Below the pieces are notes generated by a model, which was given only the letters and a program-made list of their open reading frames with translations, was not told where the DNA came from and did no database searches. A stretch of DNA of 29,846 nucleotides from a virus. Location of the stretch: the IMG/VR virus record IMGVR_UViG_3300031862_000030, positions 1 through 29,846 of that record; one strand, 5' to 3'. Numbering within the stretch: position 1 is the stretch's first letter; every line of letters begins with the position of its first letter. The position numbers and the translations under genes were made by a program. This document shows, in pieces, positions 1,167-27,395 of this stretch.

Positions 1167-4100
1167 ATGACTATCATAGATAGATTTTTACAAAGCATTG
1201 GATTGGAGAAAATAAGAAAAGAAATTAATCCTTATACTGGTCTAGTTTCAGGGCAATTCTGGAGTCAAACAGGAATGCCGTGGGTAAGCAGTGAGGGTCG
1301 TAAAGCAGTATTGACCGAATGGTTTTGGCAACCTATCAGAGGACAACCTAGGAGAGTTGATACCAATGAACTGCGAAAATTTTCTCAGACACTTTGGATT
1401 TACAACTGTATCCAAACAATCATCAATGAAATAACTTCATTGGAATGGGATATAGTTCCTAAGGATGAATATGAGTATGAAGATGTGAAGGACCATATAA
1501 GAGAAGTTAAACTCTGGTTGGAAAAACCTAATGAAAACAAAGAAACAATGGAATCTATTACCAGAGCATTCATCAAAGATATTCTAGAATTGGATGCAGG
1601 AGTCATAGTTAAAGTCTTTACAAAAGATTCTTATGATTTTGAACATTTGGAACCAAAATCTGGAGCACCAATTCTTAAACCACTTTTCTGTCCTTATTGT
1701 GCAGGTAGTAGGCAACTTTCAAGACCAGACATAGTTCAAACAGTAAGAAATATAAACCATTCTATTAGTAGTCAATTACAAAATCCAAATGCAGAATCCT
1801 ACTATAAGATGTATTCCGAACAACTTGCAAAATGTGTAAAGATTGAAGGTGAGATGAAAAAGGCGTTTGCAGAATCTAAATTTATTATTAATTGCCCTTT
1901 CTGTAATGGGACTGGTAAAGGAAGAACATTGAAGGAATTATATGTAAGAGATGGTTCTAGTTTTCTAAAAGAAGCAGATAAGTTTGGTTATATAAAAGGT
2001 TACTGGCAATATTCTTATCAAATTCCAGCACACCCAATGTGGTTCAACAGAGAGGAAATAATCTATCAGATGATTCATCCAAGGTCAATGTCTGTTTATG
2101 GTTATGCTCCCACTCAAGCAATATTAGATGTTGTAAAATCCTTACATTATTCAGTCCAATGGAATAGGGCTTTCTATGAAGAGACTGGAATTCCAGATGC
2201 ATTTATTTCCCTCAAAGATGCCAGTGCAGCTGATTACGAAAGATTTAAAGAATATTGGCAGAGGGAGATTATAGGTAAGCCACATAAATTACCTATAGTG
2301 AATACTTCGGTTGAGATTAAACCTCTGAGTATGTCGCAGAAAGAATTGGAATTTTTGGAAAGTCAGCAATGGTATTTCAAACTTGTAATTTCTACCTTTG
2401 GATTGACACCAGCAGAATTAGGATTTACTGAAGATATTAATAGAGCAACTGGAGTATCACAAGCAGAAGTAGTGAGGAGAAAAGCAATACGACCTCTAAT
2501 CAGAATTATTGAACAATCCTGGGATGAAGTTATAAAAGAATTCGGTTTCTTTGATGTTGAATTCAAATATACAGTCAAGGACATAATCGAGGAAGGACAG
2601 AAAGTTGACATTCAAAACAAACAATTACAATCAGGATTGAGAACTATAAATGAAATAAGAGTGGAGAATGGAATGATGGAAGTCAGTTGGGGAGATGTGC
2701 CGATGCAGTTATTGAGGTTTGCACCTCAAATAGCTATGGGAGGAGGAAGTGCGTTTGAAGTTCCTGGTGGAGAAGGTCAACCACAATCAGAATTAACTCA
2801 ACCTCTTCAAGTTACTGAATCAGAAGCAGAGATAAGAGCAAGAAGAGAAATGCAGGAAGAACTGAATGCTACAAGGCAGGTTCTCAAGCCAATGCAAGCA
2901 CAGATGATTGGAGTTAAACCACAAATTATTGTTGATATTACTACTGCACCTCCAGGACCAGTAGGTTCAATAAAATCAATCAAATATACTTGCCGATGGT
3001 GTAAAGAGAGATATGATGAAAAATTAGATAGATGTCCTAAATGTGGCGGACCACTGAGAGAGGAAAGGATTAAAGTTTTTTATAAACAAGTAGGAGATTC
3101 GGCAGCAGTAGGGTTTGGAAATCTATCAAGACCTATCGGAGGAGAGCAACATGTCCCTTTACCTCAACCCCCTCTGCAAGACGCACATCCTGAAGTCACA
3201 GGAATAGCAAACAAACCCCCAAGCAAGTCAGAAGGTTCGCAGACTTCTCCTTTCAGAGATTTCAAAAGCAGATGTCCAAGTTGTGGATTTGAAGGATTAG
3301 TTTTTCAAGGAATCCAACAAGCAGATTCATTCTACCCAATAGAAACAGATTGGTATAGTTGCCCCAGATGTGGAATGTGGATAAGAACAGGAGAGCCAGA
3401 TTTATTATCAATGCAAACTATGGCAAGACAGGGAGAGAATAGAGGACCATTTTATGGAGAAGGTGGACCAGGAAGATTGGCAGATACTTCTGGAATAGAA
3501 ATTCCTACTCATGGCGGAGTTCCTACTGCAACAAGTGAAGGAATATCTGGACATCAACTAGCTTCTGTCGGTCAAGGAATACAACCAGAACCGAGCAGAA
3601 CGAGCAGGACTTATGCAGAGTCTTACAAGGGCAAAAAAAAAATTTTAAAAGTCATGGAACCAGTAAAACAAGAACCTGAAGTCCAATATCTAAATGTAGT
3701 CCGACCAGATTCTTATGAGCAATATAAAATTGAAGAGAAATGTCCTTTATGTTCTAGTCCTCATGTCGAGTTTGTAGGTGGTTTTGCATTCCATTGTCTA
3801 GATTGTAACTTTGATTGGACAGATAGGATAAATGTAAATCCAATTTTGAGAGACCCAAGAGGAACTGGAACAGGACAACCAATGATAGAACCAGGAGGTC
3901 ATGTAGGATTTGAGCAAGTTCAAACACAGGAAATTCCAGACTTGACAGGAAGTCAACCACCAATGAGTCAAACAACTTATGTGAGGAAAGTTGCAGAGGT
4001 TGATGACATTAAAGCATGGGCAGGATTCAACTATGTCCCATTCCTAGAAAAGATTCTAGAATTCATCAGGAATTACAATTTTGGTGAAATCACAGATACA

Positions 4101-4442
4101 AACAAAAAGCAGATTCAATCCATAAGGAATATACTTCTTAGAGGATTTAAACAAGGATACAACATTTCAAAGATTTCATCCAGTATCAATAGAGTAATCG
4201 GAGATAAGGACAAAGCAGAATCCATAGCAAGGACAGAAATAATCAGAGCAACTAATGAAGGTAAACTAAAAGAGATGGAAGATAGAGATGTTGAAAAAGT
4301 CAAATGGTTAATTGCTCCAGATGAAAGAACTTGTGAAATCTGTAAAAAAGAAGAAGGTAAAATACTCACTTTAGAAAAAGCTACTGGACAGATACCAGCA
4401 CACCCAAACTGTAGATGCACCTGGATACCATATGTCAAATGA
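1167..4442 (+). CDS. Portal protein fused to MuF-like minor head protein, with four zinc modules
   Basis: A 1091-residue fusion. Residues about 60-520 form an HK97/SPP1-type portal (for example IYNCIQTIINEITSLEWDI near the N-terminus and TPAELGF...RATGVSQAEV near 415-435). Within the portal, CPYC (C175, C178) and CPFCNGTG (C243, C246) make a cysteine pair set resembling a DnaJ CxxCxGxG module. Beyond the portal come three zinc ribbons: C609/C612/C623/C626, C703/C706/C732/C735 and C859/C862/C877/C880, joined by Pro/Gly-rich linkers. The C-terminal 110 residues are a Mu F/SPP1 gp7-type head morphogenesis domain ending in CEICKKEEG (C1056, C1059) and HPNCRCTW (C1082, C1084). The portal is the 12-fold DNA gate, and MuF proteins join the prohead and can be ejected with DNA. 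Usual portals are 400-600 residues and MuF is a separate gene, so this architecture is unusual. Confidence 0.88.
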   Translation: MTIIDRFLQSIGLEKIRKEINPYTGLVSGQFWSQTGMPWVSSEGRKAVLTEWFWQPIRGQPRRVDTNELRKFSQTLWIYNCIQTIINEITSLEWDIVPKDEYEYEDVKDHIREVKLWLEKPNENKETMESITRAFIKDILELDAGVIVKVFTKDSYDFEHLEPKSGAPILKPLFCPYCAGSRQLSRPDIVQTVRNINHSISSQLQNPNAESYYKMYSEQLAKCVKIEGEMKKAFAESKFIINCPFCNGTGKGRTLKELYVRDGSSFLKEADKFGYIKGYWQYSYQIPAHPMWFNREEIIYQMIHPRSMSVYGYAPTQAILDVVKSLHYSVQWNRAFYEETGIPDAFISLKDASAADYERFKEYWQREIIGKPHKLPIVNTSVEIKPLSMSQKELEFLESQQWYFKLVISTFGLTPAELGFTEDINRATGVSQAEVVRRKAIRPLIRIIEQSWDEVIKEFGFFDVEFKYTVKDIIEEGQKVDIQNKQLQSGLRTINEIRVENGMMEVSWGDVPMQLLRFAPQIAMGGGSAFEVPGGEGQPQSELTQPLQVTESEAEIRARREMQEELNATRQVLKPMQAQMIGVKPQIIVDITTAPPGPVGSIKSIKYTCRWCKERYDEKLDRCPKCGGPLREERIKVFYKQVGDSAAVGFGNLSRPIGGEQHVPLPQPPLQDAHPEVTGIANKPPSKSEGSQTSPFRDFKSRCPSCGFEGLVFQGIQQADSFYPIETDWYSCPRCGMWIRTGEPDLLSMQTMARQGENRGPFYGEGGPGRLADTSGIEIPTHGGVPTATSEGISGHQLASVGQGIQPEPSRTSRTYAESYKGKKKILKVMEPVKQEPEVQYLNVVRPDSYEQYKIEEKCPLCSSPHVEFVGGFAFHCLDCNFDWTDRINVNPILRDPRGTGTGQPMIEPGGHVGFEQVQTQEIPDLTGSQPPMSQTTYVRKVAEVDDIKAWAGFNYVPFLEKILEFIRNYNFGEITDTNKKQIQSIRNILLRGFKQGYNISKISSSINRVIGDKDKAESIARTEIIRATNEGKLKEMEDRDVEKVKWLIAPDERTCEICKKEEGKILTLEKATGQIPAHPNCRCTWIPYVK

Positions 4443-4659
4443 AAAGAGAGATAAATGGTTAATGAATTTTCTTAAAAAACATAAAGGTGAGACTCTAACT
4501 CTGAATAAAATTTATCAAATGGTGCCAAAGGGACATAGGATAGGGATAGGAATTATATCTACTAGAAGCTTATGCCAGATTTTAAAGAAATACCATATAA
4601 AAAAGAAATTAATTTATTCCAGGAAAGAAGGAAAAGTAGTTACAACCTATTCTATCTAA
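4432..4659 (+). CDS. Small wHTH-like DNA-binding protein
   Basis: A 75-residue basic protein overlapping the end of the portal-MuF gene by 11 bases. Predicted helices (KRDKWLMNFLKKHK; TLNKIYQMVP; STRSLCQILKKYHI) are followed by a basic hairpin-like segment (KKKLIYSRKEGKVVTTYSI), the order expected of a winged helix. It resembles small archaeal wHTH regulators but carries no diagnostic motif. Together with the gene at 84 it brackets the packaging genes, so it could regulate late transcription or bind DNA during packaging. The start at 4432 is the only ATG giving the full fold; no clear ribosome-binding site is visible, so it may depend on coupling from the portal gene. Confidence 0.55.
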   Translation: MSNEKRDKWLMNFLKKHKGETLTLNKIYQMVPKGHRIGIGIISTRSLCQILKKYHIKKKLIYSRKEGKVVTTYSI

Positions 4660-4766: not shown

Positions 4767-6647
4767 ATGAAAAACTTCAATTTTTTCATCCCGTTCTCGA
4801 AATCACCTAGTTTTGATTCTACGTCAGGTTTTCAGTATCTTGACGGCATAGCTTCGACAATGGACATTGACAGGGATATCGAGAGGATGAGCAAACATGC
4901 ATTGGATAAAATCGTCCAGACAATTAATACAGGAAAAATTAATTTGTTTATGGACCACGAGCATGAGGCATTGAAAGCTATTGGTCTGCTTGAGAGAGCA
5001 ACATTAGGAATGGACAATAAATCAGTCCAGGTCAAAATCAGGCTGGAGAAATCAGATTCTCCGATGAGCCCAGTTCCTTATCTGCTTGACAAACTTGCAA
5101 GCGGCGTGAATCTCGGTCTGTCAGTCGGTGGAAGAGTACTCAGTCAACATGATGAAATCGAGAAAGGGCAGAAAGTGGGACATATTGATGATGTGGAACT
5201 TTACGAAGTTTCAGTCGTGGGAATACCTTCAAATCAGTTTGCAACTTTGAGCATTGCAGGAGCAATTGCAAAATCAGCCAAATTAAATAAAATTTTAATT
5301 AAACCAGATTTTATAAAATCAGATATTCTTTTCAAGACTCTCGGTCAGATGCTGAGAGACGAACAATTATTTTTCAAAAAACAGGAGGTGAATGGTTTGA
5401 GAAAAGAATTGGGAAGCGTCCCAGGAGCACAAGAAGTTCATGGGATTTCAGCGCCAGTCGGTCATAACATGACCGAGAATAATGCATGTCCTGAATGTCA
5501 TGCACTGAAGGGAGAACTTCTATTCCAAAGGGACAATACTCTGGTTTACAAGTGCAGAGCTTGCGGGATGGAATTTACCAAAGACTTGCTAGCTAATGAC
5601 ACAGTTTCAGTTTTAGGGCATCAGCCTATAAGAGATACAGGAAGAGGACCTGGAGACATGGTCGAATCTCTTCCTAAATCTGCTAAAGTCACGATGAAAA
5701 AGAATGCTACTTTTACCCACGAAGAACTTGTCAAAATAAATAAAGCTGTCAAGAAAGCCAGACAGGTTATGAAAGAAGCCGAAGCTCAAACTAATCCGTA
5801 TGCAGTATGCACGGAAGCTCTCGGCGAAATGTATACTGACAAGTGGAGAAGATGCGTTCAGCATGTTCAAAGTGGGAAAGGCATGGATAGCTTTAAAGAA
5901 GCAGAAAGTGAAGCTGAGGCTGCTTACAAACCTGTCTATACAAGAGAAATGGAGGAATCTAAAGTGAAAAAAGACGCAGAAGCCGAAGCTGAAGCAGAGG
6001 ACGAAGCCGAGGGCGAGAGTGAGTCCGAGGCTGGAAAAGTAAAAGTAAGACCTCTGAAGAAACCAAAATTTGTTAAAGAAGGAGAAGCTGAATCAGAAGC
6101 TGAGAGTGAAGCCGAAGATGAAGCTGAAACAAAAATAAAACCAACTTTAACAAAACCATGCGGAAGAAAACCAGCTTATTTATCAGCAAAAGAAGCTGAG
6201 AGTGAAGCAGAAGATGAATCAGAAAGCGATTCAGCAGAGGAAGCAGAAGAGGAAGAAGAATCTGAGGCTGAAGCAGAAGGAACAAAAGTTCCTGAAAAGA
6301 AAGAATCTCCTGGAGAAGAAGCAGCTGCAGGAACAACTGCTGGACATACAATGACTCCTGGATTTGCAACACCATCAGGTCCTCAACATATTACCCATAC
6401 ACCTGGAGTTCCAGGAAGTGGGAGAGGTCTAGGAACAATTCAAGATGTTCCAATGCAACATCCTTTGAAATCAGCTAAGGTGGATTTGGAAAAAAGAGTT
6501 GACGAATTAGTCGATAAGAAACTTAAAAAGTTTTTAGAAGACAAGCCAAGTGTTATTAAGGCTTTGTCAGATAACTTAGGACCCGAGACTATAGAACCAA
6601 CACCAGTAGGTGAGGTTCTACAAAAGAAAATGAGATTTAGACCATAG
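4767..6647 (+). CDS. HK97-type prohead protease fused to an acidic scaffold, with zinc ribbon
   Basis: A 626-residue protein. Residues about 20-175 are a prohead protease of the HK97/U35 type: FMDHEHE supplies the catalytic His (H64 or H66), LGLSVGGRV the Ser (S119), and ELYEVSVVGIPSN the conserved core strand. A four-Cys zinc ribbon follows (CPEC at 241-244, CRAC at 263-266). Residues about 310-380 form a compact helical segment (THEELVKINKAVKKARQVM...). Then come three Glu/Ala/Ser tracts (about 402-425, 439-457, 475-510) typical of highly charged scaffold regions, and a C-terminal coiled coil (DLEKRVDELVDKKLKKFL). The protein would template capsid assembly and then cut itself and the capsid N-terminus. 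An AAAGG at 4756 serves the ATG at 4767. Codon use in the N-terminal third is slightly richer in GC than neighbouring genes. Confidence 0.85.
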   Translation: MKNFNFFIPFSKSPSFDSTSGFQYLDGIASTMDIDRDIERMSKHALDKIVQTINTGKINLFMDHEHEALKAIGLLERATLGMDNKSVQVKIRLEKSDSPMSPVPYLLDKLASGVNLGLSVGGRVLSQHDEIEKGQKVGHIDDVELYEVSVVGIPSNQFATLSIAGAIAKSAKLNKILIKPDFIKSDILFKTLGQMLRDEQLFFKKQEVNGLRKELGSVPGAQEVHGISAPVGHNMTENNACPECHALKGELLFQRDNTLVYKCRACGMEFTKDLLANDTVSVLGHQPIRDTGRGPGDMVESLPKSAKVTMKKNATFTHEELVKINKAVKKARQVMKEAEAQTNPYAVCTEALGEMYTDKWRRCVQHVQSGKGMDSFKEAESEAEAAYKPVYTREMEESKVKKDAEAEAEAEDEAEGESESEAGKVKVRPLKKPKFVKEGEAESEAESEAEDEAETKIKPTLTKPCGRKPAYLSAKEAESEAEDESESDSAEEAEEEEESEAEAEGTKVPEKKESPGEEAAAGTTAGHTMTPGFATPSGPQHITHTPGVPGSGRGLGTIQDVPMQHPLKSAKVDLEKRVDELVDKKLKKFLEDKPSVIKALSDNLGPETIEPTPVGEVLQKKMRFRP

Positions 6648-6659
6648 GAGGTCTTAGAA

Positions 6660-7805
6660 ATGGAAAGATTAGAAATACCAACTGAAATGTCAGCAAGACA
6701 GTTAGGCAGTCCGTTCCAGAAAGCATTCGATTTACCAGATAGAGCAGTAGTTTCAGACCAACTCTCCGGGGGTTATGACCTTAGAAAGGACATAGCTAGG
6801 GAAATCGGGTTTACCGAAGATTCCTTGAGAGCAAATCTAGCAAAAGCATTGACCACAACACTATCAACATATTCTGCAGGAACTTTGCCAGTGTTAATAC
6901 CAGTATATATAGACCCAGAAATCATTGATTTAACAAGAAGAGCAACTCCATTGAGGGAATTAATTCCCAGAGTAGCCAACTACGGTAAGACAGCAGACTA
7001 CAATCAGATAACCACAATTGCAACTGCTCAAGCATTGGCTGAAGACGCAGCTTTGAATGAGCAAGACGAGACTTATGCGAGAAAGTCTGTTTCAATAAAA
7101 TATCTTTACTCTGTCGGTAGAGTCACAGGTCCGATGTTCGCAGCTTCCAAGCAATATTTGGCAGCTGGTGGATATGTGGATGCTTTGAGCCTTGAAGTCA
7201 AGAACAAAACTCTTGCACTCACAAGATTGGAAGAGTCCATGATTCTATTAGGAGACAAAGATACAGATTGGGTCGAACCAATAAATTCTACAACAATGAC
7301 TGCAGCAAACTGTTACGATGGAATCTGGAGATGGATTTACGAATACAATACAGCAGCAAACGTAACGGACAACGGCGGAGCAGTGCTATCAATATCTGCA
7401 ATCAGAACAGCAATTAGAGGATGCAGAACTAAAGGTGGTGAGCCGAATCTCATAGTTTGTGATTTCTCAAGCTATGATGACATCAAAGCTCTAATCCAGG
7501 ACCAGTTGAGGTACGTTAGTACTACAACAATCGCTTGGGGAATAACCACAGTCAGTTTCGAAGGAATCCCAATAATTGCAAGCAGGTTTTTGAGCACCAC
7601 TGCAGGAAGCGGAAGCGGGACAGTCTACAATGCAAAATCTCTGTTCGTTCTAGATACGAATGTAATAGAGATGAGAGTATTGCAGGATATAAGTTACGAG
7701 GAACTTGCAAAGACAAACGACAGTGTGAAATTCATGTTAAAGGTATATGAAGCACTTGTTGTTAAAGCGCCACAGTTCTGTTGGGTGATTCACGACATAG
7801 GCTAG
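6660..7805 (+). CDS. Major capsid protein, HK97 fold
   Basis: A 381-residue protein directly after the protease/scaffold with a strong ribosome-binding site (GGAGGT at 6647-6652). The sequence has the layout of the HK97 fold: an N-terminal arm (residues 1-70), a long-helix region (DPEIIDLTRRATPLRELIPR, about 85-105), a P-domain/E-loop stretch with SIKYLYSVGRVTGPMFAAS, and an A-domain ending in EGIPIIASRFL and SLFVLDTNVIEMRVLQDISY. The N-terminal arm up to about residue 60 could be removed by the protease upstream; no cleavage site can be proved by reading. Two strong leaders and hairpins downstream suggest that transcript level is tuned after this gene. Confidence 0.88.
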   Translation: MERLEIPTEMSARQLGSPFQKAFDLPDRAVVSDQLSGGYDLRKDIAREIGFTEDSLRANLAKALTTTLSTYSAGTLPVLIPVYIDPEIIDLTRRATPLRELIPRVANYGKTADYNQITTIATAQALAEDAALNEQDETYARKSVSIKYLYSVGRVTGPMFAASKQYLAAGGYVDALSLEVKNKTLALTRLEESMILLGDKDTDWVEPINSTTMTAANCYDGIWRWIYEYNTAANVTDNGGAVLSISAIRTAIRGCRTKGGEPNLIVCDFSSYDDIKALIQDQLRYVSTTTIAWGITTVSFEGIPIIASRFLSTTAGSGSGTVYNAKSLFVLDTNVIEMRVLQDISYEELAKTNDSVKFMLKVYEALVVKAPQFCWVIHDIG

Positions 7806-9532: not shown

Positions 9533-11848
9533 ATGGTAAAAAAAATATATCTAGGAGGAACAATAGTAACCTTGTTAGGACTATTTTTAGCACTTTCTCA
9601 GATTTATGGAGTTCATATTGAAACTTCTGGAGATACTGTTTGTAGCAATGAATGTATCAGTTATTTTAACATCACTTCAGAAAACTATACAATCTATGTT
9701 AGAAATCCAAATCAAATAAAATTACAGTTTTCTCCTGAGATTCAGGATTTTCAAGTTTATAGATTAAAATATAATGATTGGGTTCCAGTAGATGTAACAA
9801 ATTTCAATTTCAATAAAGGAGTTACCTATCAATTTAAAATAATTGCACATAAGAATTCAAAAGATACGGTTAAGTGGAGTTTGAGTTATTCAGATAAGGA
9901 AATAGACCCGACATGGATTGGAAGTTCTAATGTCATAAAATATGGGAATGATTTGGTTCCTGATTTTGGAGAAAGATTTTGGAATGCAAGTGGAGAATAT
10001 GCAGAATCTCCTTACTACCCTGCAATAATTTTAAACCAGACCAATTATATAGATAGATTAATTTCCTGGGAGTTTGATGAAATCAATGAAACTCACTGGC
10101 AAGCACAATTCACAATCAACCAGACTTTCTGGAACAATACAAAAAATTGTATAGGTAAATCAACTACTTGTTGGAATAATTTGAAGAACCACTATTTTCC
10201 TAATTCTACAAGTGCTCAAATCAAAGCTGATTTATTGAATATGGTAAATTATAAAAGAACCAGTTTTACTGATAACATTGAATTTTCTAATTTAAATTTT
10301 GATTCTGCAGGAGGAACTGGAAATTTCTTAATTATTTTTCCAGATGGTTTCAAAATAGGAGAGGAATTTAAATTAGGATTCAATTCAACCTATGGTTATA
10401 CAGAGTATCAAACTACCCAATCAACAACAACTACAGGATTTAAAGATGTCATGGCACTAACTATTACTGGGACGGATGCAGGAAATTACATAGTTCTTGC
10501 TGAAGCAGAAACAACTGAATCTACTGCAAGTTATGTTGCAAAGGTGAACATGAGTATTGATGGAACTTTATGGGGTTATTCAGCACAACAACCAATGACA
10601 GCTTCAACTGAGTGGAATCCTATTTCTTGGATGAAGAATGTAACTTTTGGAGCAGGTGAAACACATATTATCAGACTTGGATTAGCAACTGGAAGTGCTT
10701 CTTATACAGCATCTATAAGAAATATTCATGCATTTGTTTTGAAGCCTACTGATGGATATTATTACAATGAAAATGAAACTGTAGGTTATGTAGGTCCTGT
10801 AAAAGTAAACAAATTATGGCTTAATTTTACACCTCCGACATCTGCTCCATATCTTATTTTAGCATCATTTGAGGGAAATACAACAGCAACAACTGCTGAA
10901 CTTTGGGTAAATTTGACAGTCAATTCAATCGATAATGATACTCTTGAATATACAAGTGGTGCTGCTGAAATTAGAGCATTTGGATTGATGAATTTACTTA
11001 ATTTTTCAAATTCTCCCCAATCAATAGCAATTAATGCATATCAGAATTATGGGGCTCAATCTTATGCAATGAGAAGAATAAGATTGGCAGCAATTCCTTT
11101 AGGTAGCTATACTTATTATTTCAACAGTTCTGAATCAGAATCCACAACAACTTCAATAAGTTATGTTGATAAATTAGTTTTAACGCCAACTTTATTAAAT
11201 GCAAGCTATGTAGTAATTGGGTCATCCGAAACAGCAGAAAGTTCATCTACCTATTTTAGAGATGTTGCATTATATTTCAACACAGCAATACATAATGATG
11301 AATACGAAAGACCAAAGCAGACAACAAATTATTTCAATGGAATATTTCTAAAACAAGTAAATCCATCTGGTGCAGGAGGAGATGTGACAAAAATACAGTT
11401 TAAAACCTCTTCAGCATCTGGGACTGCAAAAATAAGGAATGCAAGACTATTGATATTTAAAGCACCAGCACCAACAGTTCCAGATATAAAAATAACTTTC
11501 AATGGTCTAACTACAAAAATTCTTTTTAATCAACCAGATATTTGTGATGAAAGAGCAATGAGAATTGTCTATCCTGAAAACCAAACAACTATAATGGGAG
11601 TAATCAATGGAACTAACAATGGAACTGCATCTGCAAATAATTTCGAATTCAGTCTTTCATCTAGTCCTCCAACAAATTATACTTTCTACATAGGAAATTA
11701 CACTCACAATATTACGATACCCGATACAGCTTGGTATAAAATTTATGCGACTATTCCAACAACTCAAAATAGAACTTTCTTATTCTATATTAACTGTAGT
11801 TATCCAACTTCAACATGGCAACCTAATTTTCAATTCAGGGCAACATAG
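9533..11848 (+). CDS. Membrane-anchored adhesin/fibre-like protein with three repeats of a beta domain
   Basis: A 771-residue protein. Residues 5-26 form an N-terminal hydrophobic segment, followed by a module (ETSGDTVCSNECISYFNIT ... DTVKWSLSYSDKEIDPTW, about 30-128) that is clearly related to the N-terminus of the 1403-residue adhesin at 23184. Three beta domains of about 105 residues follow (about 297-405, 423-530, 546-645), each with a YxVLAexE-like opening and a closing IRNaRxxxxK-like strand; such domains are common in phage surface proteins. Many Asn-x-Ser/Thr sequons suggest glycosylation outside the cell. It could be a virion fibre delivered through the membrane or a host-surface protein made during infection. 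Confidence 0.65.
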   Translation: MVKKIYLGGTIVTLLGLFLALSQIYGVHIETSGDTVCSNECISYFNITSENYTIYVRNPNQIKLQFSPEIQDFQVYRLKYNDWVPVDVTNFNFNKGVTYQFKIIAHKNSKDTVKWSLSYSDKEIDPTWIGSSNVIKYGNDLVPDFGERFWNASGEYAESPYYPAIILNQTNYIDRLISWEFDEINETHWQAQFTINQTFWNNTKNCIGKSTTCWNNLKNHYFPNSTSAQIKADLLNMVNYKRTSFTDNIEFSNLNFDSAGGTGNFLIIFPDGFKIGEEFKLGFNSTYGYTEYQTTQSTTTTGFKDVMALTITGTDAGNYIVLAEAETTESTASYVAKVNMSIDGTLWGYSAQQPMTASTEWNPISWMKNVTFGAGETHIIRLGLATGSASYTASIRNIHAFVLKPTDGYYYNENETVGYVGPVKVNKLWLNFTPPTSAPYLILASFEGNTTATTAELWVNLTVNSIDNDTLEYTSGAAEIRAFGLMNLLNFSNSPQSIAINAYQNYGAQSYAMRRIRLAAIPLGSYTYYFNSSESESTTTSISYVDKLVLTPTLLNASYVVIGSSETAESSSTYFRDVALYFNTAIHNDEYERPKQTTNYFNGIFLKQVNPSGAGGDVTKIQFKTSSASGTAKIRNARLLIFKAPAPTVPDIKITFNGLTTKILFNQPDICDERAMRIVYPENQTTIMGVINGTNNGTASANNFEFSLSSSPPTNYTFYIGNYTHNITIPDTAWYKIYATIPTTQNRTFLFYINCSYPTSTWQPNFQFRAT

Positions 11849-11856
11849 GTGATTGA

Positions 11857-13617
11857 ATGCCAGATGTAGTTAAACCAGTAATTCCTCTCAGGAGATATAA
11901 AAATTATTCTATTGATGCCTTAATCAAAATCACAGGATTAACCAAAACATTTACAATTGATGCAAGAATAATAAAAATAATTGAAAAGACCTATACGATT
12001 GATACATTAATCAAAAAATTTGGTATAGAAAAGACCTATACCATTAATACTTTAATTCAAAAACAAGGTTTGACTAAAACATACACTATAGATTCACTTA
12101 TTGCAGGAACTAAAACCAAGACCTATACCATTGATTCCTTAATTCAGAAAGCAATAACAAAAACCTATACTATAGATTCACTGATTAAAGGACCAGTTGT
12201 TAAAACTTTTACCATTGATTCTTTAATAAGGAAATTAGGATTAGAAAAGACATATACAATAGATGCTTACATTAGTAAAGCATTCACCAAAACTTACACA
12301 ATTGATTCTCTAATCAGAAAACAAATCGAAAAGACCTATACGATAGATGCTTTGCTTAGAAAGTCAATAGAAAAAACCTACACAATTGACGCTTTAATTA
12401 GGAAAGCAATCGAAAAAACATATACCTTGGATGCTTTGATTAGGAAACTTGGTTTGGAGAAAACCTATACAATTGATGTAATAATTATAACATCAGTTAC
12501 CACTAAAACCTTAACTTACACTATTGACGCATTAATAGCAAAAACATTTTCTACAACTTTTACCATTGATTCATTGATTAGGAAGTTAATAGAAAAGACT
12601 TTTACCACAGATGTTTTAATTAAAAGGTTTGGACTGGAGAAAACCTACACTCAGGATGCACTTATCAGAAAAACTTTTGAAAAGACCTACACAATAGATT
12701 CACTGATTAAAAAAGCAATAGATAAGACTTATACCATAGATTCTTTAATTCTTAAAACTTTGACCAAGACCTATACCATTGATGCTTTGATAAAGAAGTT
12801 AATAGAAAAGACTTTTACCATTGACATCTTAATTAAGAAATTTGATTTGGAGGAGACATTCACCATTGACGCATTGATTATGAAACTTATCAGTGGAACT
12901 TTTTTAATGGATGTTTTGATTCAGAAATCAATAGAAAAAACCTTTACGCTTGATGCAATAATTGTTCTACTAAAAAACAAGACTTACACGATTGATACAC
13001 TCATACAAAAATTAATGGAGAAAACCTACACAATTGATGTTTTAATTAGGAAAATGTTGGAAAAGACCTTTACTACAGATGTTCTATTAATAAAAACAAT
13101 TGAAAAAACATTCACCATAGATTCCTTAATTCAAAAATTAGATTTGACCAAAACATACACGATAGATACCTTGCTAAGGAAAACAATTGAAAAAACATTC
13201 ACCATAGATTCTATAATCAGTAAAGCATTTGAGATTACATTTTCCATTACCGTTTTGATTAGGAAATCATTCACCAAGGATTATTCTATAGATGCCCTTC
13301 TTGCAATTACTTTGACCAAAACATATACCATAGATTCACTTATTGCAGGAACTGTAAGCAAAACTTATACCATAGATGTCCTGATGGTAAGGCAACTCAC
13401 AAAAGAAATGACTATTGATACCTTAATTCAAAGAGCATCTACAAAATCTTTTAAAATGGATGTTGTGATTGATGTAGTTCCTCAGCATGATTTGAAGATA
13501 ATGCAACAATTGGGCAAGAATGAGAACTTTGGAGAGAATCAATACTTGGATGTTGAGCATTCTCAAACAAGATACTATGAAAAGGGTAGGTTTGCTGGTA
13601 GAGCTATGACAGCTTAA
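11857..13617 (+). CDS. Fibre-like protein with 37 tandem KTYTIDxLI repeats
   Basis: A 586-residue protein. From about residue 15 to 540 it consists of 37 units of 14-15 residues with consensus (E/T)KT(Y/F)TID(S/A/T)LIxK plus two or three hydrophobic residues; one unit is expanded (IITSVTTKTL) near residue 215. The alternation suggests a beta-solenoid or beta-prism shaft with an Asp at a fixed turn. The 46-residue C-terminal tail (QHDLKIMQQLGKNENFGEN...) is non-repetitive. There is no signal peptide, unlike both neighbours. The start (ATG after TAGGTGATTGA) is well supported. A tail-fibre or capsid-fibre shaft is the likely role; the DNA repeats have diverged at synonymous sites, so the array is old or under selection. 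Confidence 0.6.
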   Translation: MPDVVKPVIPLRRYKNYSIDALIKITGLTKTFTIDARIIKIIEKTYTIDTLIKKFGIEKTYTINTLIQKQGLTKTYTIDSLIAGTKTKTYTIDSLIQKAITKTYTIDSLIKGPVVKTFTIDSLIRKLGLEKTYTIDAYISKAFTKTYTIDSLIRKQIEKTYTIDALLRKSIEKTYTIDALIRKAIEKTYTLDALIRKLGLEKTYTIDVIIITSVTTKTLTYTIDALIAKTFSTTFTIDSLIRKLIEKTFTTDVLIKRFGLEKTYTQDALIRKTFEKTYTIDSLIKKAIDKTYTIDSLILKTLTKTYTIDALIKKLIEKTFTIDILIKKFDLEETFTIDALIMKLISGTFLMDVLIQKSIEKTFTLDAIIVLLKNKTYTIDTLIQKLMEKTYTIDVLIRKMLEKTFTTDVLLIKTIEKTFTIDSLIQKLDLTKTYTIDTLLRKTIEKTFTIDSIISKAFEITFSITVLIRKSFTKDYSIDALLAITLTKTYTIDSLIAGTVSKTYTIDVLMVRQLTKEMTIDTLIQRASTKSFKMDVVIDVVPQHDLKIMQQLGKNENFGENQYLDVEHSQTRYYEKGRFAGRAMTA

Positions 13618-23044: not shown

Positions 23045-23187
23045 AATTGAAATGGAATGGACAGATACCAATAATAATAAGTAGGAAGGATTTGAACAAT
23101 AACATAAGAATAAACGAAAGTATCTTTGAAGTTACTGATGAAATAGGAGAAAAACTATTAAAAATAAAGGGATTTGAGAAAGTATGA
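23041..23187 (+). CDS. Small 48-residue protein, GFEKV ending
   Basis: An ATGA-overlapping frame on both sides: MKLKWNGQIPIIISRKDLNN..., then ESIFEVTDEIGEKLLKIKG and FEKV. The second half matches a common short motif in phage structural genes in which a strand is followed by a (D/E)xxxxxLLxxxGFExV helix-strand. It is encoded between the distal tail candidate and the large adhesin and is likely to be a small tail or adhesin-associated protein. Confidence 0.5.
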   Translation: MKLKWNGQIPIIISRKDLNNNIRINESIFEVTDEIGEKLLKIKGFEKV

Positions 23188-26100
23188 GTTTTACAACAAA
23201 AATAACAAATACAATGAAAACTCATAAAATCACGATAGCAGGAACTGGAACTATAATTACTCTAATTGCAGTTTTAATGACTCTCAGTTATTATGGAGTC
23301 ACAGTCAAGACTTCTGGGGACATAACTTGTGCAGGAACAATTCAGGAACCTTGTATTTCTTACATAAACATTTCAACCTCAAATTTTTCAGTAGTTAATC
23401 CAAAAACAGTCTTTTATTTTGATGATGAATCGAAAGTGAATTACACAGTCTATAAATTGGATACTATCGGAAGGTGGCAGAAATTCAACATCTCTGGAAA
23501 GACAATCAGTGCAAATTCTTTCTGGCAGTTGAAACTGGTTGGATACAAGCAGATAAATGAGACAGTCAAATGGGCGATGGGAGCAGGAGCAGTTGTCGCA
23601 GACCCTGTCTGGAAAGGATATTCCTCTAATGATTTCTTTGTAAAACTTGTTGAGAATCAAGCAGACCTCACACAAGGATATGCAGTTTTTGACTTCTACA
23701 ATCCCACAATTTTTGATTTTAATGTCTCTAAAGAATTGCTTAAACCATTCTTTCAAAAATATCTTGGAAATGATGTAAAAAGCTGGAAGATAATAATAAA
23801 CGGAACCGAATTAGGATACTATCCTGTCAATAAAAGCTATGTAGAACAGGTTTGGATAAGCAATATTTCTTGCTATAATATTATCTCGCCAAACGGAACA
23901 GTCTCTCAAATCTGCCAGGATTTAGGATGGTATGAAAATCAAACTAAATATAGAATAGAATATATTCAAGGAGACTATCCTGTTAAAGCTAAGACTGTTT
24001 ATGATGTTGAGTTATATGGATATTGGGATGCTCACTTAGGTTTGCAATCAGTAGAATGGTTTCCTGATATTACGGTTTCAGGAGTAACTTTTAGACAGAT
24101 GAAATGGGCTTGGTGGAACTCTTCTTGGCAAAGAAAAAGAGGAATAAACATAACAAATAGTGGTTCTTCTGCATTAACAAACTATCAATTTGTGATTAAC
24201 ATAACTTACGACAGCGACATGGCGAGCGATTTCTCAGACATCAGGTTTGTGAATGGTTCTGAAAATGCTGAGCTGAGTCATTGGTTAGAAACTAAAGTTA
24301 ATTCGCAGTGGGCTTATTTTTGGGTTAAAGTCCCAAGCATACCAGTTGGAACAAACCAAAACTTAATTTATGTTTACTATGGAAACACAAGCGTAGTAAA
24401 TTCAGCTTCAAATGGAACAAATGCTTTTGTATTTTATGACGACTTTTCAACAAACACAACATCTAATTATGTGCAAGTTGGCGCTACTGGAATTTCAAAC
24501 ATAACTTGGGATTCGACTAATGGTTATTTACATTGCTATGGATGCAGTAACGCAAGATTCAAGAATACTATTTCGCTCTTACTCAGCGAAGATTTAATTA
24601 TTGAAGGAAGATATAGAGGAAGTAATTTAGACCACCATGGTTCAGCGTTTGCCTATAATGCAAGCAATTGGATACATGGAACTTTCTGTTCTGCAAATAT
24701 GATACTTGATGTAAGAATTGCAGGAAGTGAAACTGCAAGCCAACCAGCATACACTTTTTCCGCAAATACATGGTATGTTGATAGGGTGATTTGGAATAGA
24801 ACTCAAGCACATGCATATGCATATGCTTATTCAGACCAAATTTTAACAAACTCAAGCACATCTTTAGTTTCTACATCTCTTAGTGCAAATTTTGGCACAA
24901 CACAACTATATTCTGGCGTAGACCTTTCAGGTTCTTCTGGAACAATTGAAGTTGATTGGATAAGAACAAGAAAATATGCAACACCAGAACCAACCTATTC
25001 AATCGGTTCTGAACAAACTCCTTCTCCTCCAGGTGGAGTAGTTGCAATATACCTTAATGGAAGTTCTACTGATAGGAAAATAGAGACAGGAGAAGTTTTA
25101 AATATCACTGGAACAATTTCAAGTGGGACAGTTTGTCTATCCGTTAATCATACTGATTTAGGAACAAATTTCACCTGCGGAACAGATTCTGTAACTTATA
25201 TGTGGAATTCTGTCAATTCATCAACAAACAAATTCAATGACGGAAGCACTACAAAAAATATTAGTTTTATAGCAAGCAAAGATATGGAAGATTCACACCT
25301 TTGCTATCCTGATAGTTTTAATCCAAATTGTACTAATGGAATGGATGAAGATTGGAATACATATACAATAGGACTTGCTGATTTAGGAAATACAATAAAT
25401 GAATATTATGATAATATTCCTGGCATGGTTTCAGCCAATTGGACATTCAAATATCAAACATATGTAAAAACAGGATATTATTTCAGTGTTCAATGTGAAA
25501 ACGAAACTTTTTTCAATACAATATTTTTACATACTGCTTCTTATGGAAATGGAACTTTTACAAGAACTGCTGAAATTCCAAGTGCATGCCTCAATAAGTA
25601 TTATGGATTGACAAAAATAATCACTGGGATAAGAAATATAAGTGCCAGTGAACCAACAAAATATTATGAAGGAAAGTTGGATTATGCACTAGGCAACCAG
25701 ACCATTTATGTAAGACTTCATAGTAATGATTTGATAAATAAAGCAAGCATAAATCTTACTGGAGTAAGCACAGCATCTCCAGAAAATTATCCAACCAATG
25801 TAAGAATTTTTGTAAATGATAGTTTAAGCAATGTTATTTCTGGAAAATTAAAAGAAGGAACATCAAGCATTAATACATTTTATGATGGAATAAGTCTAAA
25901 AAACATGACTTTCAACAGAACAGGAGGTCAGATGACTTATCTAAAACTGGCAAAAAATGCCATAGTTATGGATGCAAAATTAAATATCAGCGCATTTCCA
26001 ATCAATTATACTTTCCAATTCGCAGATTCTGCCGTTGAATCTTCAAATGGAGATTGGAGCACTTTAAGTACTGACCAACCCCTTAACGATTATACAGCAA

Positions 26101-27395
26101 CTTGGTCTTCTGCATGGAAAATAAATGGAACTGAATCCCTTTTAGTTTATCTCAATTCAGGTGGAACTGTTTCGAATTATGCATATATCGAGACATATAA
26201 TCCAAATAATGTGAACATGACCGATGCAGGTCATGTGAATGTTACAATCAAGCCATTGAATAAGAATTCAGCATTTGATATAGAAATTTTATATGGTCCA
26301 GAATTTCCTTTGAATTCGCGTACTGTCCTTTGGAGCGAGAATCTTTATGACATACCTGATGCTGGAGAAAATGTAACATTGGATTTGATAGATGTCAACA
26401 GCAATTCATACAAATTATTTTTCAGATTGAAACTAAATCGTGCAGATTATTTTGTTGCAGGTTCGAATATAGGATTTTATTTAGATTGGGTTCGAGCCAT
26501 AGATTCTTATTCATATCCAAATGACACATACATAGATGCCGAAGGAAATGGGACCGCTGATTGGAGTTATGCAGGCATGCTCAATGAAAGTGTATCACCG
26601 CAACAAACCAGTAATTTCAGTGATAGTTTGAATCATTATCTTTCTGTTTGTAGTTCTGATAGTTATGGAAATTGCAATATTCCATTGGTTTTTGGAACTG
26701 ATGCAGCTGGAATTATTCAGATATCTTCTATAAATATAACCTATACAATCATTTACAATCCAATTACTTTGAATGCTGATTATCTTCAAAATTACTTAAA
26801 TAAATCTGCTTATGGATATGTCAACATACCAATTAAAATTGAAGCTAATTATGGGAATGTTACTAGTGTTGGAAATATCACTATTTCTGGATTGAAATTG
26901 AGTTACAATGGTTCTGCCAATTTCACTGCAACTGCTTTCCAACTTGGAAACACTACAAATAATGCCAGTCAGAATATCAATGTTTACTTTTCTAGATTCG
27001 TAAGGAATCTTCCATACACATTTACAAATAATGTAATTTTCCTGCCTTCAAACAACAATGCAACCAATGTAACACCCTATGGACAAACAAACAACATAGC
27101 TATCTTTAACATCACTTGGATGAATTATGATGTGAATGCAAGTCTTGCTATCAGAATAAATGAAACAACTTCCTGTGCATTCTTCAGAATAAGTAACACA
27201 TCTTCATGGGACAATGGTTTCAATTTGACAACTTCATTCAAACAAATCTATTACAATAGGCAATTCAATTCGTCAGGAACAACAAATAACTGGTTGTGGG
27301 TAAATCTCTATAACTGCAATGCAACAGAATTGAAAACTTTTGTGAAAAGGTTTGATTTGGAAAGTTGTTGTATTGGCTGTATGGCTTGTTGGTGA
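23184..27395 (+). CDS. Giant membrane-anchored adhesin with DUF2341 and lectin-like domains
   Basis: A 1403-residue protein. An N-terminal TM segment (ITIAGTGTIITLIAVLMTL, about 16-34) is followed by the module shared with the gene at 9533 (KTSGDITCAGTIQEPCISYIN ... ETVKWAMG ... ADPVWKG, about 40-140). Residues about 310-400 are DUF2341 (WWNSSWQRKRGINITNSGSS ... FSDIRFVNGS ... YFWVKVPSIPVGTNQNLIYV), followed by a LamG-like domain starting FYDDFS (about 412-610). Several beta domains with many Asn-x-Ser/Thr sequons fill the rest, and the end has cysteine-rich ESCCIGCMACW. DUF2341-lectin pairs are common in archaeal and bacterial surface proteins. In a tail-gene context, receptor binding is the likely role. 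Confidence 0.65.
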   Translation: MSFTTKITNTMKTHKITIAGTGTIITLIAVLMTLSYYGVTVKTSGDITCAGTIQEPCISYINISTSNFSVVNPKTVFYFDDESKVNYTVYKLDTIGRWQKFNISGKTISANSFWQLKLVGYKQINETVKWAMGAGAVVADPVWKGYSSNDFFVKLVENQADLTQGYAVFDFYNPTIFDFNVSKELLKPFFQKYLGNDVKSWKIIINGTELGYYPVNKSYVEQVWISNISCYNIISPNGTVSQICQDLGWYENQTKYRIEYIQGDYPVKAKTVYDVELYGYWDAHLGLQSVEWFPDITVSGVTFRQMKWAWWNSSWQRKRGINITNSGSSALTNYQFVINITYDSDMASDFSDIRFVNGSENAELSHWLETKVNSQWAYFWVKVPSIPVGTNQNLIYVYYGNTSVVNSASNGTNAFVFYDDFSTNTTSNYVQVGATGISNITWDSTNGYLHCYGCSNARFKNTISLLLSEDLIIEGRYRGSNLDHHGSAFAYNASNWIHGTFCSANMILDVRIAGSETASQPAYTFSANTWYVDRVIWNRTQAHAYAYAYSDQILTNSSTSLVSTSLSANFGTTQLYSGVDLSGSSGTIEVDWIRTRKYATPEPTYSIGSEQTPSPPGGVVAIYLNGSSTDRKIETGEVLNITGTISSGTVCLSVNHTDLGTNFTCGTDSVTYMWNSVNSSTNKFNDGSTTKNISFIASKDMEDSHLCYPDSFNPNCTNGMDEDWNTYTIGLADLGNTINEYYDNIPGMVSANWTFKYQTYVKTGYYFSVQCENETFFNTIFLHTASYGNGTFTRTAEIPSACLNKYYGLTKIITGIRNISASEPTKYYEGKLDYALGNQTIYVRLHSNDLINKASINLTGVSTASPENYPTNVRIFVNDSLSNVISGKLKEGTSSINTFYDGISLKNMTFNRTGGQMTYLKLAKNAIVMDAKLNISAFPINYTFQFADSAVESSNGDWSTLSTDQPLNDYTATWSSAWKINGTESLLVYLNSGGTVSNYAYIETYNPNNVNMTDAGHVNVTIKPLNKNSAFDIEILYGPEFPLNSRTVLWSENLYDIPDAGENVTLDLIDVNSNSYKLFFRLKLNRADYFVAGSNIGFYLDWVRAIDSYSYPNDTYIDAEGNGTADWSYAGMLNESVSPQQTSNFSDSLNHYLSVCSSDSYGNCNIPLVFGTDAAGIIQISSINITYTIIYNPITLNADYLQNYLNKSAYGYVNIPIKIEANYGNVTSVGNITISGLKLSYNGSANFTATAFQLGNTTNNASQNINVYFSRFVRNLPYTFTNNVIFLPSNNNATNVTPYGQTNNIAIFNITWMNYDVNASLAIRINETTSCAFFRISNTSSWDNGFNLTTSFKQIYYNRQFNSSGTTNNWLWVNLYNCNATELKTFVKRFDLESCCIGCMACW

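Follow-up and report, generated by a model that had tools for sequence, protein, structure and literature searches.

A portal-MuF fusion protein with a long tether carrying putative zinc ribbons in a viral genome fragment

The window, a 29,846-nucleotide stretch of viral DNA, raises the question of how a portal protein and a MuF-like minor head protein come to be encoded by a single gene, and what the long cysteine-bearing stretch between them might do. The gene and its parts are as follows.

1167-4442, + strand: portal-MuF fusion gene, 1091 residues, single open reading frame (Pfam, PHROGs)
1167-2741, + strand: portal part, residues 1-525 (PF04860, PDB profile match, Foldseek)
2742-4004, + strand: linker, residues 526-946, mostly predicted disordered
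4017-4439, + strand: MuF domain, residues 951-1091, with the canonical RTE...N...CxxC...HPxCRC motif (PF04233, homologues, model)

The reading frame begins with ATG, has a single stop and is open from end to end, and both Pfam domains score above their curated cut-offs, which confirms the sequence-only reading that one gene joins a portal and a MuF protein. Phage_portal (PF04860) matches residues 192-500 with an E-value of 3.9e-29, together with a second stretch, at 102.3 bits against a cut-off of 39.1, while Phage_Mu_F (PF04233) matches residues 984-1086 with an E-value of 2.1e-17, at 64.3 bits against 29.6. PHROGs agree, with matches to the portal family phrog_2662 (8.8e-62) and the minor head protein family phrog_115 (2.6e-27). 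The portal chain 8q7d is the PDB profile match of the fusion alignment (E = 1.3e-34). Based on 36 aligned sequences, AlphaFold2 reaches good confidence for most of the portal part and for the MuF domain. In a Foldseek search with the full model, portals come out on top, that of phage 812 being the best and those of GTA and HK97 also appearing, with E-values down to 3.7e-15; the phage 812 portal is the same chain that the sequence profile finds. The MuF domain, when modelled alone, has a pLDDT of 89 and resembles predicted viral minor capsid and head morphogenesis proteins (best TMq 0.70-0.77), and solved structures in the PDB give no significant match to it. Its Cys/His set in the window is C1056/C1059/H1079/C1082/C1084; the T, C, H and C positions are invariant in 28 MuF homologues, and the window keeps the full motif. 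Between the two domains, from about residue 525 to 946, pLDDT is mostly below 50, with local maxima at the Cys ribbons described below and a helix at residues 553-580.

A joined gene of this kind could arise from an assembly or frameshift artefact, and its relatives bear on this directly. As a single-protein query against viral contigs, the fusion protein gives no relatives; they were gathered through the major capsid protein.

6660-7805, + strand: major capsid protein, SU10/HK97 type (PF17236, E = 1.7e-18)

This query gave 32 and then 80 viral loci, as well as three contigs from metagenome-assembled genomes (MAGs), one of them from Woesearchaeota. Rather than a conserved stop, six of the seven close relatives with a readable portal-MuF junction have the fusion (two near-identical contigs being counted once). 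In the seventh, L009, the portal and MuF genes are split by a TGATG stop-start overlap, the kind of junction that an artefact could have joined. With the fusion shared by six of these seven relatives and no interruption in the window's own reading frame, such an error is very unlikely. The split in L009 was also considered as an unspliced intron, and was kept as a TGATG overlap since the junction shows no convincing splice motif.

On a tree of 35 portals, 21, that of the window among them, are joined to MuF, and the other 14 lack the fusion. The fused or unfused label changes three times, compared with a mean of about 11 changes for shuffled labels. The clade of the window (eight rows, support 100/99) has seven fused members, L009 being the split one, and a separate MuF gene is found both in L009 and in a 12-member clade. 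Split relatives such as L009 show the fusion to be labile. One of the 21 fused portals of this family, defined by the major capsid protein, lies on a Woesearchaeota MAG contig. In a 371-genome sample of the phylum of the Woesearchaeota MAG, 11 genomes have a match, and three of them (G026, G037 and G042) encode the two Pfam domains within a single open reading frame. Several further genomes of the phylum have long reading frames with a MuF-like tail after another portal type, as recognised by eye or by Pfam portal models. The portal-MuF fusion is thus common and evolutionarily labile in a virus family linked to DPANN archaea. The host is probably archaeal, to judge by contig L068 from Woesearchaeota, the known archaeal fusions and the intron-like inserts described below, although two relatives, L069 and L070, lie in bacterial MAGs.

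The fusion itself is already known elsewhere. The sequence-only reading was aware of no such arrangement in a standard head-tailed virus; that claim fails for the fusion, which has precedents in HSTV-1, HRTV-28, Sonali and Microbacterium phages, and stands for the three-ribbon linker, which no other fusion examined has. In each of the first three, both Pfam domains were confirmed. HSTV-1 and HRTV-28 are haloarchaeal viruses. The record of gp3 of HSTV-1 (Haloarcula sinaiiensis tailed virus 1, Shortaselviridae) carries the note 'Portal (N-terminus) and Mu F-like (C-terminus)'. This protein has the same domain order as that of the window and also an archaeal host, but its linker is shorter and lacks CxxC ribbons, and the identity of about 27% is confined to the portal core. 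HRTV-28 gp10 (genus Pormufvirus) is likewise a single portal and MuF protein, of 1139 residues, from a virus of an archaeal host, but its linker differs in content and has no CxxC ribbons. Arthrobacter phage Sonali gp3, annotated 'portal and MuF-like fusion protein', comes from a phage of a bacterial host and has a Nudix domain, not zinc ribbons, between portal and MuF. Microbacterium phages of subclusters EA3, EA5 and EA8 and of cluster EB also have portal-MuF fusions (PMC7302621), in one gene as in the window but with bacterial hosts. What is new in the window is the ribbon-decorated tether and the insert in the portal.

Three four-Cys ribbons lie in the linker, and a further Cys set lies inside the portal, all as the sequence-only reading placed them.

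1683-1922, + strand: portal insert, about 77 residues, CPYC, helical hairpin, CPFCNGTGKG (window only)
2991-3044, + strand: putative zinc ribbon 1, C609/C612-C623/C626 (window only)
3273-3371, + strand: putative zinc ribbon 2, C703/C706-C732/C735 (window only)
3741-3806, + strand: putative zinc ribbon 3, C859/C862-C877/C880 (common to the close clade)

The Cys pairs of the insert are C175/C178 and C243/C246, and AlphaFold2 places two long helices, 187-203 and 209-236, between them. The whole protein has nine CxxC motifs, compared with a maximum of five in 5000 same-residue shuffles, and three compact CxxC..CxxC pairs, compared with a maximum of one in 5000 shuffles. Curated zinc-ribbon profiles give sub-threshold matches only (DUF7129, 16.1 bits against 30); zinc binding by the ribbons is suggested by their Cys spacing. 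Of the supposed chain of zinc ribbons, the ribbons hold and the packed chain does not: since the spacers are 76 and 123 residues long and mostly disordered, the ribbons resemble beads on a string.

Neither ribbons 1 and 2 nor the insert in the portal have a convincing counterpart in any of the fetched loci, and the insert matches nothing in the aligned relatives and nothing significant in phage records. The insert was considered as an in-frame intron and this was rejected: the frame is open, CPYC and CPFCNGTGKG are encoded, and the boundaries lack a convincing splice motif. Ribbon 3 has a wider distribution. It is found in all nine readable close relatives (L006, L008, L009, L073, L074, L076, L079, L080 and L081), always immediately before MuF, and since in L009 it is carried by the separate MuF gene, it belongs to the MuF side. 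Six of these relatives (L006, L008, L073, L076, L079 and L080) are like the window in having the fusion, ribbon 3 and a ribbon in the protease region, but they have a single linker ribbon and lack the portal insert. A linker ribbon is absent from the distant fused relatives and from HSTV-1, HRTV-28 and Sonali.

The linker or portal end takes up other domains as well, with lineage-specific stretches in L006, L008 and L080 and the Nudix domain in Sonali; the tether of portal-MuF fusions thus accepts extra domains. In one relative (L030, 1003-3732), in which MuF is a separate gene, the portal has a Zeta-toxin domain at its C-terminus (PF06414, E = 2.4e-26). Another locus (L150, 895-3714), from a genome of the woesearchaeotal phylum, has a fused portal-MuF whose tail after MuF resembles by eye an ADP-ribosyltransferase-type domain, with no Pfam match.

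A further ribbon occurs downstream of the fusion gene, in the protease.

4432-4659, + strand: small gene of 75 residues between fusion and protease
4767-6647, + strand: S78 prohead protease with a long acidic C-terminal part (PF04586, E = 2.6e-7)
5487-5564, + strand: putative zinc ribbon on the protease, C241-C266

In L006, L008 and L009, too, MuF and protease have between them reading frames of a size similar to the small gene. The protease-region ribbon is present in all close relatives read (the nine with ribbon 3, and L010), where it follows the protease domain directly or lies in the next reading frame. Among distant relatives in which the protease was found, none has a ribbon there, unrelated CxxC reading frames elsewhere in the region aside. 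Since ribbon 3 and the protease-region ribbon each occur in all close relatives readable at the site, and in none of the distant ones read there, both probably arose close to the clade's base. Their co-occurrence is limited to this one clade and so amounts to one evolutionary event.

These observations are best accommodated, with a probability of about 0.5, by a portal ring that holds MuF inside the head on flexible tethers, the ribbons serving as protein-docking modules. The ring would consist of twelve copies, as inferred from the family, and each portal subunit would lead from its C-terminus through a flexible tether of about 420 residues to a MuF minor head protein. The C-terminal end of portals points to the head interior, so the tethers and MuF would lie inside the head beside the packaged DNA, which is also where unfused MuF proteins are located. 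A covalent link would stand in for non-covalent contacts of the kind by which the SPP1 portal recruits gp7. Along the tether, the CxxC pairs would form small zinc-stabilised modules. Ribbon 3 is an inherited feature of the clade; ribbons 1 and 2, like the insert in the portal, would have been gained on the branch leading to the window, within a part of the protein that readily takes up domains. Because ribbon 3 is always accompanied by the ribbon in the protease region, its likeliest role would be protein docking in procapsid assembly, as a tether to protease or scaffold, and not DNA binding. This co-occurrence favours a protein contact, though only weakly, and the suggested docking role draws on it and on charge.

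The charge of the ribbons also bears on a different role, in which they bind DNA and hold the end of the genome close to the portal. In favour of it, ribbon 1 has a basic charge (+3), and SPP1 gp7 is described as a DNA-binding protein that the portal brings to the procapsid; yet the sole conserved ribbon, ribbon 3, is neutral to acidic (net charge -3 to +1), and the protease region carries a ribbon too. DNA binding is regarded as unlikely.

A narrower form of the docking proposal has the ribbon of the MuF tether dock to that of the protease region, in a zinc-dependent link that would bring protease or scaffold to the portal vertex, and which the window would have elaborated with two further ribbons on the tether and, on the portal itself, a helical hairpin capped by CxxC pairs. 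We regard this specific pairing as a long shot, less probable still than DNA binding. The ribbons on MuF and protease offer a testable idea of how the protease of archaeal tailed viruses finds the portal vertex.

Tethering has a consequence for copy number. The sequence-only reading took the fusion to fix one MuF per portal subunit, which holds only for an uncut chain; unless the tether is cut, MuF would reach up to 12 copies. In SPP1, MuF is held at the portal as proposed for the window, but gp7 is a single-domain protein from a separate gene, bound to the portal at one to two copies per capsid. The 80alpha minor capsid protein gp44 is ejected, binds DNA ends and is present in about two copies (PMC7290940). 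Such low numbers, and the ejection of gp44 with the DNA, suit a polyprotein whose disordered tether would be cut by the prohead protease at maturation, the fusion serving only for loading. The S78 protease gene lies just downstream, the tether is predicted to be disordered, and in both L009 and the 12-member clade MuF serves as a gene of its own. Against this, release of all copies would still leave more MuF than known systems hold. Such a polyprotein, in which freed MuF with ribbon 3 would be ejected and act as a pilot protein or at the genome end, is possible, though less probable than the tethered arrangement. The intact portal-MuF chain may be absent from virions.

Upstream of the fusion gene lies the terminase.

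514-1134, + strand: terminase large subunit, nuclease domain only (PHROGs terminase)

Its ATPase part is not recognised in the window, and in L008 and L009 the TerL reading frame has about 490-500 residues; the window may be cut upstream. Downstream, a protein of 586 residues (11857-13617) consists almost wholly of the short repeat KTYTIDSLIxK and its variants, and is perhaps a fibre. Two large Asn/Ser/Thr-rich proteins (9533-11848 and 23184-27395) have similar N-termini, and one has a DUF2341 domain.

The most unexpected feature met, short intron-like inserts in portal genes, belongs to the relatives and not to the window. Five inserts of 25-36 nt interrupt the portal genes of three close relatives (L008, 2257-2438; L009, 3194-3226; L079, 2131-2161), all within the equivalent of window residues ~35-62. 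They form hairpins, and most contain stop codons. The cuts that restore the conserved portal protein fall inside codons, after the second base of 3-nt bulges, and these bulges flank a central helix of 4 bp, which is the geometry of archaeal bulge-helix-bulge introns. The structural test was set at the protein-defined boundaries, replacing an unfiltered motif scan that was too unspecific: in four of the five inserts the central helix is complete, with four pairs, and at least four of the five intron-helix pairs are present, compared with 0.14% of random position pairs. The inserts thus fit as candidate archaeal bulge-helix-bulge introns. The first spliced pre-mRNAs described in archaea were those of CBF5 homologues (PMC2738675), and our literature search, which most subscription papers lay outside, found no such case in an archaeal virus. 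By the same comparison, no short inserts occur in other genes of the close clade, nor in the window, and an Rfam scan of the interrupted relatives gave no known RNA family. At the same portal position (after FWQ), L080 has a 187-nt insert with stop codons (3414-3602). This longer insert departs from the short bulge-helix-bulge geometry and has no match among Rfam families.

The portals of L008 (2413-6285) and L079 (2154-5417) contain inteins, with Intein_splicing and LAGLIDADG matches, and in L036 and L089 the fusion reading frame ends in what by eye appears to be the start of an intein, at the MuF HPxC or HVNC motif. HNH-endonuclease-like reading frames, recognised by eye, lie immediately before the portal gene in L009 (2545-3000) and immediately after the fusion gene in L006 (3741-4190), and share their neighbourhood with the intron-like inserts.
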